Shown here one piece after another: positions 1,247 to 13,474 of a DNA stretch of 13,474 bases. Both the position numbers and the translations under genes were made by a program. This stretch comes from Bacillota bacterium (lineage in GTDB: Bacteria > Bacillota > Dehalobacteriia > UBA4068), in NCBI GenBank assembly GCA_017439615.1, contig JAFSIU010000041.1:1-13474 (forward strand). Direction: 5' to 3'. The notes beneath the pieces were generated by a model, which worked only from the letters and a program-made list of their open reading frames with translations, was not told the DNA's origin and made no database searches. Within the stretch, counting starts at the first letter, position 1; each line of letters starts with the position of its first letter.

Positions 1247-2410
1247 TTACAGCCCCTTAATTGTCTCCATGACATAATTGCCGAATTCTTCACAGGTGCA
1301 GCCGGTGTTGCGGCCGGTGATGGTAAGCTTCTTTTCTTCGAAGGAGCAGATGTCAAGAGCACGGGTGAGCTTATCACTCTTTTCCTGATATCCGATATGT
1401 GAAAGCAGCATGGCAGCGGCGCGGAGCATAGAGCAGGGGTCGGCATAGCAGCCTCTGCCCTCGGCAATCATTCTGGGTGCGGAGCCGTGAATGGCCTCGA
1501 ACATGGCGTATTTTTTGCCGAGGTTGGCAGCACCTGCGGTGCCTACGCCGCCCTGGAATTCGGCAGCCTCATCGGAGATGATATCGCCATAAAGATTGGG
1601 CAGCAGCAGGATCTGGAAATCCTTGCGGCGTTTTTCGTCAATCAGCTTGGCGGTCATGATGTCGGCATACCATTCATCGGTGGTGATTTCGGGATAATTA
1701 TCTGCGACCTTGTGGCAGTCCTCCAGGAAATTGCCGTCGGTGGTTTTGATAACATTTGCCTTGGTGACAAGGGAAACTCTTGTATAGCCGTTTTTCCTGG
1801 CATAGTCATAAGCCAGTTCGGCAATGCGGGTGCTGCCCTGCTTGGTGGTTACGACAAAGTCGAAGGCAAGATCCTCAGTAACATTGATGCCCTCGGAGCC
1901 GATGGCATAGCCGCCCTCGGTATTCTCACGGAAGATGACCCAATCGATACCCTTTTCGGGGACTTTGACAGGACGAACATTGGCGAAGAGATCGAGCTCC
2001 TTGCGCATTGCTACATTGGCGCTTTCGATATTCGGTCTGCCATCACCCTTCTGCGGAGTGGTGGTGGGGCCCTTGAGGATAACATCGCAGGCTTTCAGCT
2101 CTGCCAGCACATCATCGGGAATTGCTTTCAGCTTTTCGACACGGTTTTCAATGGTGAGGCCGTCAATCACCTTGAAGCTGATCTTGCCTGCTGCGACTTC
2201 ATCAGCCAGCAGGAATTCGAGCATTCTCTGTGCTTCGCCGGTGATGATGGGACCGATGCCGTCGCCTCCGCAAATGCCGATGATGATATTATCCTTATTT
2301 GCATAGTCCACGAAATCTCCCTGTGCCTTCATCATTTCCACTCTTTTGAGCTGTTCTTCGATCAAAGCGGCAAATTTTTCCGCTGCATTTTTGGTTGCTT
2401 CATTATTCAT
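1247..2410 (-). CDS. Isocitrate/isopropylmalate dehydrogenase family protein, probable isocitrate dehydrogenase
   Basis: This 387-residue protein is predicted to convert isocitrate to 2-oxoglutarate and CO2 with NAD(P)+. Visible family features are GDGIGP (49-54), the substrate segment S120-x-N-x-x-x-R126 with R136 and R161 (FREN), the K217 region, and the metal-binding aspartates of PNLYGDIISD (D276, D280). The cofactor loop HGSAPRM (308-314) is unusual: canonical NAD-type members have HGSAPDI, and here an Arg replaces the Asp and the loop is a few residues longer. Coenzyme preference therefore cannot be read directly. The ATG at 2410 is chosen over one at 2437 because AAGGGAG precedes it and it lies one base after the aconitase stop, consistent with translational coupling. 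Context with aconitase and citrate synthase supports isocitrate over isopropylmalate or homoisocitrate as substrate. Confidence 0.85.
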   Translation of the reverse strand: MNNEATKNAAEKFAALIEEQLKRVEMMKAQGDFVDYANKDNIIIGICGGDGIGPIITGEAQRMLEFLLADEVAAGKISFKVIDGLTIENRVEKLKAIPDDVLAELKACDVILKGPTTTPQKGDGRPNIESANVAMRKELDLFANVRPVKVPEKGIDWVIFRENTEGGYAIGSEGINVTEDLAFDFVVTTKQGSTRIAELAYDYARKNGYTRVSLVTKANVIKTTDGNFLEDCHKVADNYPEITTDEWYADIMTAKLIDEKRRKDFQILLLPNLYGDIISDEAAEFQGGVGTAGAANLGKKYAMFEAIHGSAPRMIAEGRGCYADPCSMLRAAAMLLSHIGYQEKSDKLTRALDICSFEEKKLTITGRNTGCTCEEFGNYVMETIKGL

Positions 2411-2411
2411 A

Positions 2412-4343
2412 TCAGTTTGCTCCCTTCGTATATTCAAGTAAGCCGCCGCTTAAGATGATTGCCTTTTGTCTTTCGGAAAGGCCTGCCGCAAGCGGAATTT
2501 CGGCATCATTATTCATATTTTTGAGAATGATTTTTCCGTCATTGGTGATGGCATCACGCAGATTCTCAAGCATCAGCTCATCGCCTTGGGTGATTTTGTC
2601 ATAATCCTCCGCATTTGCAAAGGTGAGGGGCAGAATACCTGCATTGATGAGGTTTGCCACATGAATTCGGGCAAAGCTCTTGGCGATGACGACCTTTATA
2701 CCGAGATAAAGAGGCACAAGCGCCGCATGCTCACGGGATGAGCCTTGGCCATAGTTGCTGCCGCCGATGATGAAGCCGCCGCCCTTGGCCTGTGCTCTTG
2801 CGGGGAATTCGGTATCCACCACGCCGAAGCAGAATTGCGAAAGGTGGGGGATATTGGAGCGATAGGGGAGTATTTTGGCTCCTGCGGGCATGATATGGTC
2901 GGTGGTGATATTGTCTCCGACCTTCAAAACTGCCTCCGCTTTATATTCTGCAGGCAGCGGTTCTCCTTTGGGAATGCTTTTGATATTCGGGCCCTTGACC
3001 AGCTCCGCACTTTTTGCTTCTGCTTCGGGCAGGGGAGCGAGTATGCCGTTATCATTTATTTTGAAGCTTTCGGGCATGGGCAGAACATCAATTTCACCGA
3101 TGTCACGCGGGTCGGTGAAACAGCCAGTGAGTGCTGATGCCGCCGCTGTTTCGGGACTGACGAGATAAACCTGACCGTCTGCCGTGCCGCTTCTGCCTTC
3201 AAAATTGCGATTGAAGGTTCTGAGGCTCACACCGCCGGAATTGGGAGAAAAGCCCATTCCTATGCAGGGGCCGCAGGCACATTCGAGCAACCTTGCACCG
3301 CTTTGCAGGATATCCTCCAGCGCTCCGCATTCGGCAAGCATTGCCAGAACCTGACGCGAGCCGGGAGAGATGGAAAGATCAACATTGGGTGCTATGGTCT
3401 TGCCCTTTAAGATAGCGGCAACCTTGAGCATATCAGAAAGTGAGGAATTGGTGCAGGAGCCGATGCAGACCTGATCAACCTTCATCCCTGCCAATTCTCT
3501 GACAGCCTTGATATTATCGGGGCTGTGGGGGCAGGCTGCCAAAGGCTGCAGCTTATCCAATTCGATAATGATTTTTTTGTCATAGACAGCATCCTCATCA
3601 GCCTTCAATTCCTGCCAGACTTCCGCTCTGTTTTGTGCTTTCAAGAAAGCAAGCGTGATCTCATCGGAGGGGAAAACGGAGGTGGTGGCACCAAGCTCCG
3701 CACCCATATTGGTGATGGTTGCTCTTTCGGGAACGGAAAGATTTTTGACACCTTCGCCGCTATATTCAATAACGCTGCCCACGCCGCCCTTGACGCTTAA
3801 AATCCGCAATACCTCAAGGATAATATCCTTGGCGCTGACAAGGGGAGAGAGCTTGCCTTGAAGCTCGACATTGATGATTTTCGGCATGGTGATATAATAT
3901 GTTCCGCCACCCATGGCAACTGCCACATCCAGACCGCCTGCACCCATGGCGAGCATACCGATACCGCCGCCTGTGGGGGTGTGGCTGTCGGAGCCGAGCA
4001 GGGTTTTGCCGGGTGCGCCGAAGCGTTCCAAATGCACCTGATGACAGATGCCATTGCCGGGACGGGAATAAAAGAGGCCGTATTTTGCTGCGGCACTTTT
4101 GATGAAGCGATGGTCATCGGCATTTTCAAAGCCGTTTTGCAATGTATTATGATCTATATAGGCCAGCGAAAGCTCGGTCTTTACTCCTGGGATATCCATA
4201 GCTTCGAATTCAAGATAAGCCATGGTGCCTGTGGCATCCTGTGTGAGAGTCTGGTCGATTCTGATGCCGATTTCGCTGCCGCGTTCCATTTTGCCGTCTC
4301 TGATATGAGCGGCAATTATTTTTTCTGTAATGGTATAGCCCAT
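2412..4343 (-). CDS. Aconitate hydratase, single-chain Aquifex-type
   Basis: This 643-residue enzyme would isomerise citrate to isocitrate through cis-aconitate using a [4Fe-4S] cluster in the cytoplasm. The cluster cysteines are visible as C297 in GSCTN and C357/C360 in ACGPC. The LLGSDSHTPTGGG motif is at 115-127. The C-terminal swivel domain carries GGSNYGQGSSREHAAL at about 527-542, including the catalytic Ser-Arg segment. The length is well below the roughly 890 residues of AcnA or AcnB and fits the shorter Aquifex-type aconitases, which combine the large and small domains of isopropylmalate dehydratase-like enzymes in one chain. AGGAGGG lies just upstream of the ATG. It starts 8 bases after the regulator gene stops and ends one base before the isocitrate dehydrogenase ATG. 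Isopropylmalate or homoaconitate activity is less likely given the neighbours. Confidence 0.92.
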   Translation of the reverse strand: MGYTITEKIIAAHIRDGKMERGSEIGIRIDQTLTQDATGTMAYLEFEAMDIPGVKTELSLAYIDHNTLQNGFENADDHRFIKSAAAKYGLFYSRPGNGICHQVHLERFGAPGKTLLGSDSHTPTGGGIGMLAMGAGGLDVAVAMGGGTYYITMPKIINVELQGKLSPLVSAKDIILEVLRILSVKGGVGSVIEYSGEGVKNLSVPERATITNMGAELGATTSVFPSDEITLAFLKAQNRAEVWQELKADEDAVYDKKIIIELDKLQPLAACPHSPDNIKAVRELAGMKVDQVCIGSCTNSSLSDMLKVAAILKGKTIAPNVDLSISPGSRQVLAMLAECGALEDILQSGARLLECACGPCIGMGFSPNSGGVSLRTFNRNFEGRSGTADGQVYLVSPETAAASALTGCFTDPRDIGEIDVLPMPESFKINDNGILAPLPEAEAKSAELVKGPNIKSIPKGEPLPAEYKAEAVLKVGDNITTDHIMPAGAKILPYRSNIPHLSQFCFGVVDTEFPARAQAKGGGFIIGGSNYGQGSSREHAALVPLYLGIKVVIAKSFARIHVANLINAGILPLTFANAEDYDKITQGDELMLENLRDAITNDGKIILKNMNNDAEIPLAAGLSERQKAIILSGGLLEYTKGAN

Positions 4344-4351
4344 ATTCCCTC

Positions 4352-5005
4352 CTATTTAACAATAAGGCTGAGCAGATTTGCATGTGCATTGGCGATATGC
4401 TCAACCGTCAGTTTTTCTGCCAGATCGGCATCATGCGCGATCAGCGCATTGAGAATATCTCTATGCTCCTTGATAGCCTTGGGTGCGCGTCCGTCAGAAG
4501 AAAAGGAGCGTTGGCGATAATGCTGAATCATATGATGCAGATTGGAAAGTGTGTGCTGCAAGGTGCGGCTGTCGGAATATTCATAAATGAGCTCGTGAAA
4601 ACGGGTGTCAAGGTCATTGATCTGCTCACTGCAGGCCCTGTTCTGATAGAATTCCTGAAGCTCCACGACTTCTGTCAGTCTTTCCAACTGCTCATCGGTG
4701 ATTTTTTGTGCTGCCCAACGGGAAGCAAGACCTTCAACATACATACGAATGGTATATATATCGGTCAAATCCTTTTCGGAAATACCGAGTACCACGGCGC
4801 CCTTATTGGGGGTTATCTGTACCAGACCCTTTTGCTCCAGCATACGCAAAGCCTCGCGAACAGGAGTGCGGCTGACGGAAAATTGTTCGCAAAGGCGGTT
4901 TTCTGTCAGTGAGGTTCCGGGGGTGAGCACTCCGTTGATTATCTGTCTTTCCAATTCATTGAAAACCTGAAAGCTTAAGGAGTTTGTGTTATAAAGCTTT
5001 TCCAT
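4352..5005 (-). CDS. GntR-family transcriptional regulator with FCD ligand domain
   Basis: This 217-residue regulator has an N-terminal GntR winged helix-turn-helix (about 8-75, with the recognition segment SVSRTPVREALRMLE) and a C-terminal all-helical FCD domain (about 85-212). The usual FCD metal and ligand residues are visible as D133, H137, H181 and H203. FCD domains commonly bind small carboxylates through a metal, so citrate, isocitrate or 2-oxoglutarate is a reasonable guess for the effector, but the sequence does not say which. The gene sits inside the operon, two bases after the citrate synthase stop and eight before aconitase, so it very likely autoregulates the pathway. A perfect TTGTATACAA palindrome in the operon leader matches the core of the operator known for Bacillus GntR. 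Its ribosome site AGGAGAGG lies within the end of the citrate synthase gene. Confidence 0.9.
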   Translation of the reverse strand: MEKLYNTNSLSFQVFNELERQIINGVLTPGTSLTENRLCEQFSVSRTPVREALRMLEQKGLVQITPNKGAVVLGISEKDLTDIYTIRMYVEGLASRWAAQKITDEQLERLTEVVELQEFYQNRACSEQINDLDTRFHELIYEYSDSRTLQHTLSNLHHMIQHYRQRSFSSDGRAPKAIKEHRDILNALIAHDADLAEKLTVEHIANAHANLLSLIVK

Positions 5006-5007
5006 TG

Positions 5008-6375
5008 TCAGAATTCCTCTCCTTTCAGCTCAGTAATGGCAGCTTCAAGCTCTTCATCGCTGAGATTTGTAGTTCTGCCTGCTGCATATTGCGAGTCGAC
5101 CCAATCCTTGATTTTTGCAACAAGCTCATCATTCTTTTTCAGATGTTTGTCTTCGGGCAGATTATAGTGATCGTTGATCCAATATGCAATTCCTGCCAGA
5201 CCGCTAGTATTGCTGATAACAACAGCAGGTTTGCGGTTCAGTATCTTTTCTGTGTCAAAAATGTTATATATTTCGGGGTTTTTCATCAAGCCGTCTGCAT
5301 GAATGCCTGCTCGGGTGCTGTTGAAGCTTTTGCCTGCAAAGGGTGTCATGGGAGGAATATGATATCCGATCTCATGTTCATAATATGAAGCGATCTCGGT
5401 GATAACAGTGGGATCCATTCCGTCAAGAGTACCTTTCAGGGAAGCATATTCGAAAACCATAGCTTCCAAGGGGATATTGCCGGTCCTTTCGCCGATGCCC
5501 AGAAGCGAGCAGTTCACGGCAGAAGCGCCGTGCAGCCAGGCAACAGTTGCATTGACCACCGCCTTATAAAAATCATTATGTCCGTGCCATTCGATCATCT
5601 CGGAAGGAACATCCGAATAATGCTGCAAGCCATAGATGATGCCGGGGACGGAACGGGGAAGTGCGACTTCGGAATAGGGAATGCCATAGCCCATAGTATC
5701 GCAGGCACGGATCTTGATGGGAATACCTGCCTGCTGACCGAGCTTTTGCAGTTCATTGACAAAGGGTACAACAAAACCGTAATAATCGGCACGGGTGATG
5801 TCCTCCAGATGACAGCGGGGACGGATACCCATTTCGAGAGCCTGAGAAACCACTGCCAGATACCCTTCCATGGCCTGCTTTCTTGTCTTGCCGAGCTTTT
5901 GGAAGATGTGATAGTCGGAGCAGGAAACAAGAATCCCCGTTTCCTCAATGCCGATATCCTTCACAAGCTGAAAATCCTGCTTGGAGGCGCGAATCCAGGT
6001 GGTGATGGCGGGGAATTCATAGCCGAGCTCGCGGCATTTTTCCAAAGCCTCTCTGTCCTTTTGGCTGTAGACAAAGAATTCTGTCTGACGAATAAGTCCC
6101 TTGGGGCCGCCCAGTCGATGCATCATTTTGTAAAGGTCGACTATCTGCTTGACGGTATAGGGTGCGCGGGATTGCTGCCCATCGCGGAATGTCGTATCCG
6201 TCATCCAGATTTCTTCCGGCATATTTATCGGAACACGTCTGTGGTTGAAGGCAATTTTGGGCACCTCTGTATAAGGATAAATCTCCCTGTATAAATTGGC
6301 TTCTTCAACATCCTGCAGAGAATAACGATAATTTTTTTGTTCCAGCAAATTGCTCTTTTTGCCGAGTTCTATCAT
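5008..6375 (-). CDS. Re-type citrate synthase (HMGL-like family)
   Basis: This 455-residue protein is predicted to condense acetyl-CoA and oxaloacetate to citrate with Re-face stereochemistry. It belongs to the DRE-TIM/HMGL-like barrel family of isopropylmalate and homocitrate synthases, unrelated to ordinary Si-citrate synthase (GltA). Visible residues are R64-D65 in TTFRDGQQ, the metal-binding H264-x-H266 in EWHGHNDF, GIGERTGN (293-300) and the family motif around H359 (TRAGIHADG). The N-terminal part, with WMTDTTFRDGQQSRAPYT, resembles what I remember of the Clostridium kluyveri enzyme. Position in an operon with aconitase and isocitrate dehydrogenase supports citrate over homocitrate or isopropylmalate as product. 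The ATG at 6375 is preferred over one at 6420 because GGAGGTG (6381-6387) lies five bases upstream. The enzyme known from C. kluyveri is oxygen-sensitive and Mn-dependent. Automatic pipelines often mislabel such proteins as generic pyruvate carboxyltransferases. Confidence 0.85.
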   Translation of the reverse strand: MIELGKKSNLLEQKNYRYSLQDVEEANLYREIYPYTEVPKIAFNHRRVPINMPEEIWMTDTTFRDGQQSRAPYTVKQIVDLYKMMHRLGGPKGLIRQTEFFVYSQKDREALEKCRELGYEFPAITTWIRASKQDFQLVKDIGIEETGILVSCSDYHIFQKLGKTRKQAMEGYLAVVSQALEMGIRPRCHLEDITRADYYGFVVPFVNELQKLGQQAGIPIKIRACDTMGYGIPYSEVALPRSVPGIIYGLQHYSDVPSEMIEWHGHNDFYKAVVNATVAWLHGASAVNCSLLGIGERTGNIPLEAMVFEYASLKGTLDGMDPTVITEIASYYEHEIGYHIPPMTPFAGKSFNSTRAGIHADGLMKNPEIYNIFDTEKILNRKPAVVISNTSGLAGIAYWINDHYNLPEDKHLKKNDELVAKIKDWVDSQYAAGRTTNLSDEELEAAITELKGEEF

Positions 6376-6407
6376 TAAAACACCTCCGTAATGATTAAAT
6401 GCGGGGA

Positions 6408-6417
6408 TTGTATACAA
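6408..6417. promoter_or_regulatory. Putative GntR-type operator TTGTATACAA
   Basis: A perfect 10-bp palindrome lies about 12 to 21 bases downstream of the predicted start of the citrate synthase operon and upstream of its ribosome site. It matches the core of the Bacillus subtilis GntR operator. The operon itself encodes a GntR/FCD protein, so this is the best candidate for its binding site. A bound repressor here would block promoter escape. Confidence 0.55.
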
Positions 6418-6435
6418 CAATACAAGAATACTATT

Positions 6436-12452: not shown

Positions 12453-12571
12453 GTTGCAAAAGCGTAGATTATACAGCAAAATGGGAAAGAGGTATTTTTT
12501 AAATATAATTTGTTGCAAAAGCGTATATTGTGTAGAAAAATAAGAAAAGGAAGTATTTCCAAATATTATTA
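12453..12571. repeat. Imperfect tandem duplication, about 59 bp per copy
   Basis: Copy 1 spans about 12453-12511 and copy 2 about 12512-12571. Both begin with the identical 14-mer GTTGCAAAAGCGTA (12453-12466 and 12512-12525). They continue with alignable AT-rich sequence including a shared GTATTT and a near-identical AAATAT-A/T-ATT end, with a short gap needed in the middle. The unit fills the intergenic space between gltX and the DUF975 gene. Confidence 0.75.
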
Positions 12572-12575
12572 AATG

Positions 12576-12583
12576 AAAGGGGA
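12576..12583 (+). promoter_or_regulatory. Ribosome binding site for the ATG at 12591
   Basis: AAAGGGGA lies 7 bases before ATG 12591 and is the only good ribosome site near the start of the DUF975 gene. It argues that the native start is 12591, although that frame is interrupted by the 13-bp repeat. No convincing -35/-10 pair was found upstream on the plus strand; a TATAAT at 12504-12509 lacks a partner. Confidence 0.6.
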
Positions 12584-12590
12584 ATTTCTT

Positions 12591-12758
12591 ATGACTCGTT
12601 CCGAATTGAAAGACCTGATTGAAAGACCTGTCCAGAAGTGCTATGTCCAATGCTTCACCCAGGGGTTGGGTGATTGTCCTTGTCTATATGCTATTAACCG
12701 GTTTTATAAGTCTTATAGGCGGCAGGGCGCTTCCTTTGATTTTTGGAGTTTCTGTTGA
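12591..12758 (+). pseudogene. Frameshifted 5' frame of the DUF975 gene
   Basis: The ATG with the good ribosome site opens with MTRSELKDL, which matches the typical N-terminus of DUF975 proteins. After the first copy of the 13-bp repeat the frame leaves the family sequence and reads 55 residues in total, the last part rich in Cys, Tyr and Arg, before a stop. Removing one repeat copy joins MTRSELKDL directly to SRSAMSNASPRGW of the main frame, giving an intact protein of 265 residues. As it stands, translation from this start makes only a short aberrant peptide. Confidence 0.7.
12605..12630 (+). repeat. Exact 13-bp tandem duplication inside the DUF975 gene
   Basis: ATTGAAAGACCTG occurs at 12605-12617 and again at 12618-12630 with no gap. 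Thirteen is not a multiple of three, so the second copy shifts the frame of the gene that starts at 12591. Confidence 0.95.
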
Positions 12759-13401
12759 ATATGTCCTGAGCTCTGATGGTACGGGAATCATTCTGACAGG
12801 TTGGCAAATGTTCGCTTCTTTTATATGCAGCACTGCTGCAAGTCTATTGGGAATTCCTCTCGGCTTTGCGATATATCATTGTGGTTTGGTGGTGGCACGA
12901 GGAGGCAAGGGTGGCTTGGAAGAGCTCTTCTATGCTTTTAAGCGAGGACTGGCCTGGAAGAGCATCGGTCTTTCCCTTTTGATTGGACTTTTCACATTCT
13001 TATGGTCTATTATTGGTCTTGTTCTCGGCTTTTTACTTGCTTATTATACACAGAATGTTATTTTTTACATAATCTCCTTGATTCCTGCTATTGCAGTTTC
13101 TTATCGCTATCGTCAGGCATTTTATATTCTGATGGACAATCCCGAAATCTCCTGCTGGGAGGCAATCCGCCAATCCAAACAAATGATGAGGGGTAATAAA
13201 GGCGACCTCTTTATTTTGGATATCTCCTTTATTCTGTGGTATTTATTGGGTATTGTAACCTTTGGCTTGGCAATTTTCTTTGTAACCTCCTATCAGCTTA
13301 CTGTTTGGGCCAATTATTATCGCAGTCTGAAGGGCGAATTCAATGGCCCTTCCGCAAAAAGAGATGAGTCTATGCATGCTGAATATGTAGTAACTCCCTA
13401 G
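12619..13401 (+). CDS. DUF975 family integral membrane protein, 5' end frameshifted
   Basis: The long frame encodes up to 260 residues with about five hydrophobic segments (about 16-36, 64-94, 114-142, 147-160, 197-225). The signature YRYRQAFYILMDNPEISCWEAI (162-183, shown in part as YRYRQAFYI), the following RQSKQMMRGNKGDLF and the W-A-N-Y-Y-x-x-L-K-G end match the DUF975 family of Firmicutes membrane proteins, whose function is unknown. The frame can open only at TTG 12619, created by the second 13-bp repeat copy, or at ATG 12643; neither has a good ribosome site. The original start was probably ATG 12591, now out of frame. The gene may therefore be inactive, poorly translated, or switched on when one repeat copy is lost. 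The body of the frame shows no other damage, suggesting a recent event. Confidence 0.8.
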   Translation: MKDLSRSAMSNASPRGWVIVLVYMLLTGFISLIGGRALPLIFGVSVEYVLSSDGTGIILTGWQMFASFICSTAASLLGIPLGFAIYHCGLVVARGGKGGLEELFYAFKRGLAWKSIGLSLLIGLFTFLWSIIGLVLGFLLAYYTQNVIFYIISLIPAIAVSYRYRQAFYILMDNPEISCWEAIRQSKQMMRGNKGDLFILDISFILWYLLGIVTFGLAIFFVTSYQLTVWANYYRSLKGEFNGPSAKRDESMHAEYVVTP

Positions 13402-13447: not shown

Positions 13448-13474
13448 GAATATTAAAAGAAACGGAGCTATGGT

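Follow-up and report, generated by a model that had tools for sequence, protein, structure and literature searches.

A 13-bp tandem duplication near the start of a DUF975 gene in a Bacillota draft genome, probably a recent silencing mutation

Results and discussion

The window analysed here, the whole of a 13,474-nucleotide contig (JAFSIU010000041.1) from a Bacillota bacterium (assembly GCA_017439615.1), contains a gene for a membrane protein of the DUF975 family (PF06161) that carries a perfect 13-bp tandem duplication a few codons after its start. We consider it likely that this duplication arose recently and spontaneously and that it silences, or strongly lowers, a gene that is otherwise open. 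The evidence consists of the repeat itself, its effect on the reading frames, and a comparison with the N-termini of two other proteins, one from a close relative and one from a second DUF975 gene in the same genome.

The duplication and the reading frames

The unit ATTGAAAGACCTG, read directly from the sequence, occurs twice on the plus strand, at 12605-12617 and 12618-12630. A first inspection of the letters (the sequence-only reading) had given these coordinates, and they are right: the copies are adjacent and 100% identical, with zero mismatch (Tandem Repeats Finder score 52). Counted from ATG 12591, the probable original start, the duplicated unit falls in codons 5-9, and the second copy places the DUF975 frame +1 relative to this ATG. 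The frame that begins there now comprises 55 codons (12591-12758, plus strand), reading MTRSELKDL, then IERPVQKC..., and ends at the TGA at 12756-12758. The frameshift claimed for the ninth codon is thus real, but codon 9 is still native and the change starts at codon 10.

Where the two copies join, a TGA in the DUF975 frame is formed (12616-12618, plus strand), directly before the TTG at 12619. It is this stop, and not the TTG, that the junction newly creates; the TTG, earlier attributed to the second copy, is codon 6 (Leu) from ATG 12591 and is present in both copies. From TTG 12619 the coding frame runs to 13401 on the plus strand (260 amino acids, aa) with zero internal stops in 260 codons, and the gene is to this extent intact, as had been claimed. 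The lack of any further stop suggests that there has been little time for decay. With one copy removed, the reading would be 265 residues long, as calculated before; the real relative P0002 has 266.

On the favoured reading, a spontaneous event would have doubled the unit within codons 5-9. Ribosomes loading at ATG 12591 would then make the nine native residues, continue out of frame and halt at 12756-12758, which most likely renders the allele silent or greatly lowers its expression. As for any short direct duplication, one copy could be lost again by slippage or recombination. What we would look for in a spontaneous duplication is present: perfect adjacent copies, absent from the relatives (one close relative and one paralogue), in a frame that otherwise remains open. 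The junction has no microhomology: the unit's last base is not repeated immediately to the left of copy 1, nor its first base immediately to the right of copy 2. Simple slippage is therefore less obvious as the origin, though this does not decide the matter. For the same reason an insertion-sequence footprint was considered; none is claimed, and no search for insertion sequences was made. Programmed +1 frameshifting, considered from the letters alone, was set aside; if the shift came later than about position 12664, the protein's first long helix would be spoilt.

Frequency of comparable repeats

The draft genome comprises 206 contigs with a total of 1.26 Mb; its completeness is 74% and its contamination 4.45%. 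We scanned the window's contig and 20 others (21 of the 206 contigs, 111,884 bases) for perfect tandem pairs with periods of 7-60, excluding simple repeats of 1-3 bases. The pair described here was the sole one with a unit of 10-60 bp; four others had units of 7-9 bp, and in these contigs there was no sign of a genome-wide excess of such pairs. None of 300 simulated windows produced a pair of period 13 by chance, and analytically 2e-4 such pairs are expected per window. At 27 loci of other genomes (90,118 bases, with some overlap) we found 18 arrays, three of which have units of 14, 15 and 48 bp. Perfect pairs of such unit length are therefore uncommon yet not exotic. At one of these loci, in a related genome (L025, G002:C1), perfect pairs with 14- and 15-bp units (1771-1798 and 1837-1866) sit at the 3' end of, and just past, a DUF975 gene, near the contig end.

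These figures also bear on the possibility that the second copy is an assembly or sequencing artefact, which we regard as quite unlikely. The fragmented and incomplete state of the draft and its contamination would fit such an error, as would the undisturbed N-terminus of the near relative P0002. However, even the nearer contig end is 844 bp away from the pair, the surrounding 221 bases match one place in the genome only, and no other pair with a unit of at least 10 bp was found in the 21 scanned contigs. A 26-bp repeat is, moreover, shorter than or near the word length usual in short-read assembly, which also counts against an artefact.

The original start of the gene

Assignment of the gene to DUF975, made before from the letters, holds: the Pfam E-value is 1e-30, and the stretch 12643-13398 matches PF06161 with 107.8 bits against a gathering cut-off of 34.8. 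Starting at TTG 12619 the score is 106.6 bits, and P0002 scores 117.4 bits. P0002 is a protein of 266 aa, 87% identical to the window frame and encoded on a 997-base contig. It begins MTRSELKDLSRSAMSNASP, in agreement with the N-terminus predicted from ATG 12591, and the 260-aa frame from TTG 12619 aligns with it from its residue 6. The paralogue within the genome (contig C107, L032) has its best-placed ATG at 1483, with a ribosome-binding energy of -11.7 kcal/mol; from there the protein begins MSRAEIKQLSREALRNADP (start stretch MSRAEIKQLSREALRNADPKGW), and its frame is also open farther upstream, up to a TTG. With the DUF975 family the gene has in common a membrane protein that bears an R..LK..A helix at its N-terminus. 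The whole profile is covered by P0002 and by the paralogue (from ATG 1483), matching from residue 1 at model position 1, whereas in the window frame the match begins at model position 28: owing to the duplication it is without the first 27 positions, and no complete in-frame N-terminus was found in it.

Ribosome-binding energies, calculated as the duplex energy of the 20 bases upstream of a start and compared with 3000 random sites in the window, point the same way. ATG 12591, which is preceded by the Shine-Dalgarno-like AAAGGGG (12576-12582, plus strand, read from the sequence), has -7.8 kcal/mol, the best value among the starts tested and one reached by 3% of the random sites. Upstream of it lie two copies of a 21-base core motif, both on the plus strand: a distal one at 12456-12476 (GCAAAAGCGYAKATTRTRYAG, common to the paralogue) and a proximal one at 12515-12535. 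The latter starts 76 bp before ATG 12591, and in the C107 paralogue the distance to the ATG is also 76 bp. Because the N-termini of P0002 and the paralogue, the match to the first profile position, the spacing of the motif and the binding energy agree, ATG 12591 is probably the original start, as first proposed.

The shared motif may represent a promoter or operator common to both DUF975 genes. It belongs to a 36-nt stretch present in two copies at 12453-12547 (81% identical, start-to-start spacing 59). At up to two mismatches it was found in the window's genome (74% complete) only before the two DUF975 genes; since the pattern derives from the very three sites that it matches, this specificity is partly built in. 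With two mismatches allowed, five of 60 other genomes had one match each, compared with four matches for a reversed control pattern. A fourth match in the window's genome (three mismatches, C113) lies inside another coding frame and was dropped.

Relatives of the protein

P0002 is the only protein more than 50% identical to the query, besides the window's own, among the 74 found; the next is 48% identical over one third of the query. This one close relative is undisturbed at its N-terminus, which speaks against the case, raised at the outset, that all relatives have two copies. Searches of other collections gave more distant matches: two relatives at 38% and 39% identity in genome_contigs, none confirmed in viral_contigs, and 15 records in the phage collection, all below 60% identity. 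Among 61 whole genomes, the window's own included, 19 had a match, the best outside its own genome reaching 46% over part of the protein.

A strict pattern for the N-terminal motif was found at 11 of the 28 DUF975 places (L010 and L026 being one gene) and in 27 of 72 proteins, but it misses near matches such as L008 and L015; a relaxed pattern was found in 57 of the 72 proteins. The motif is thus common, not universal, in the family. For alignment and structure modelling we picked 48 of the 74 homologous proteins by hand and added the window frame and the paralogue. The fold predicted for the DUF975 protein resembles CysZ and choline-transporter-like proteins; by sequence, no solved structure was clearly related (two matches, E-values 0.09 and 0.36).

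P0002 and the window frame (12619-13398) differ at 33 positions, 23 of them in residues 81-165, one in 6-40 and two in 216-266. This clustering, with near-identical ends, possibly reflects recombination or gene conversion between DUF975 genes.

Internal start codons

Translation from an internal start, TTG 12619 or GTG 12670, might still give the two-copy allele a functional product, but we think this unlikely. TTG 12619 opens a frame that lacks just five residues of the one-copy reading, and two of the further in-frame candidates on the plus strand, GTG 12670 and TTG 12736, have intermediate binding energies (-6.0 and -6.2) with the remaining frame open. On the other hand, a ribosome-binding site is nearly absent before TTG 12619 (-0.9 kcal/mol, with 68% of random sites equal or better), and likewise before the third candidate, ATG 12643 (-0.6). 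The pairing upstream of GTG 12670 ends about three bases from the codon, inside a predicted hairpin at 12655-12673, and out-of-frame translation from ATG 12591 would cross all of the internal candidates. Any of these starts would also remove the R..LK motif and at least some of the N-terminal helix (residues 3-16), if not the whole of it, and PF06161 is unmatched at the N-terminus. In the structure model of P0002 this N-terminal helix is followed by the first long helix, residues 21-46; a start at GTG 12670 would drop the former, and one at TTG 12736 both.

The hairpin (TCACCCAGGGGTTGGGTGA) is terminator-like and lies within the early DUF975 frame; the region has two such sites, with 1.0 expected.

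The database protein P0001, with 221 aa, is consistent with a start moved to TTG 12736, so that in the database the damage is visible as nothing more than a short N-terminus.

Recent mutation or switch

Several points weigh against a recent silencing mutation. The evidence is a single allele from one genome of the genus, the window's own, and an assembly error could account for it. P0002, a single protein from a 997-base contig, might represent a paralogue and not the same locus, because its differences are clustered and in relatives one contig can carry several DUF975 places (G011:C106, G017:C170). Whether orthologue or paralogue, its N-terminus would in either case illustrate the undisturbed reading. 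The database cluster of P0001 has two member sequences, of which the analysis covered one. Finally, TTG 12619 costs just five residues, and GTG 12670 and TTG 12736 show some complementarity for ribosome binding, so that part of the function could survive.

The sequence-only reading had offered two origins, a recent mutation or phase variation. A duplication that shifts the frame of a gene whose remainder is open suits the first; a 13-bp switch is no more than a possibility, with two copies, no microhomology and no second allele seen. In such a switch, gain and loss of the second copy would turn the DUF975 protein off and on within the population, and the site would be kept for this purpose. 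Two perfect copies shortly after the start of a frame that is otherwise open are what this would look like, and reversible duplications in capsule genes of Streptococcus pneumoniae are termed phase variation in titles cited in PMC4022640 and PMC4243769. Against this, two copies are the minimum, the junction is without microhomology, and the duplication is found in neither the P0002 protein nor the paralogue; a contingency locus would have several units or a repeat kept in relatives, and here there are two copies, with two relatives examined. Searched against the protein set, the 55-aa out-of-frame product shared three words with none of the candidates and gave neither a homologue nor a second two-copy allele. 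PMC4022640 gives reversion at or below about 1e-5 for insertions no longer than nine bp. With one allele in one genome of the genus and an out-of-frame product without homologue, we rate a true switch as very improbable, and likewise the full proposal, in which a regulated membrane protein of the DUF975 family would be turned off and on by a two-copy contingency site of 13 bp in a bacterium that is uncultured and clostridia-like.

On its own, a recent silencing mutation would amount to one frameshift allele in one draft genome and have little significance. If the copy number did vary among cells of the population, switching by duplication would have a new target in DUF975, and the variation would offer a handle on the function of this uncharacterised family.

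Flanking genes

At 13459-13474 the contig breaks off in a possible ribosome-binding site and start codon (ATG 13470) of a further gene. Upstream of the DUF975 gene lies gltX, for glutamyl-tRNA synthetase. Among the 120 proteins listed for this enzyme, out of 8000 scored, there is a single 99% cluster, comprising three sequences, and all others reach 56% identity at most; the few that carry names are from Eubacterium, Ruminiclostridium, Lachnospiraceae and Clostridia. On the minus strand, a cluster at 1247-6420 encodes an isocitrate/isopropylmalate dehydrogenase-like protein, a member of the aconitase family, a regulator of the GntR/FCD type and an HMGL-like protein (homocitrate/isopropylmalate synthase-like). 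They are perhaps a small citrate pathway with its own regulator; their NCBIfam matches are all under the curated cut-offs.

Comparison with known systems

Spontaneous, reversible tandem duplications are described for the pneumococcal capsule genes cap8E and tts and the type 3 locus (Waite et al. 2001, 2003, as cited in PMC4022640 and PMC4243769). There, as here, a tandem duplication within a coding sequence abolishes the product, or would do so, and losing one copy would restore it. In contrast, the pneumococcal duplications arose and reverted in culture, with a known phenotype, whereas ours is a single allele from a draft genome in a gene of uncharacterised function. Deep long reads have exposed copy-number variants of phase-variable promoter repeats in another bacterium, according to PMC12817950. 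Tandem duplications as one class of spontaneous mutation are reported for lrp of Xenorhabdus nematophila, where, according to PMC6786866, three of 25 mutations were duplications of 26-116 bp. That case differs in that lrp is a regulator gene under selection and the mutants arose independently in culture; the mutations, including the tandem duplications, were judged there not to be of phase-variation origin, which also speaks against a switch in the DUF975 gene.
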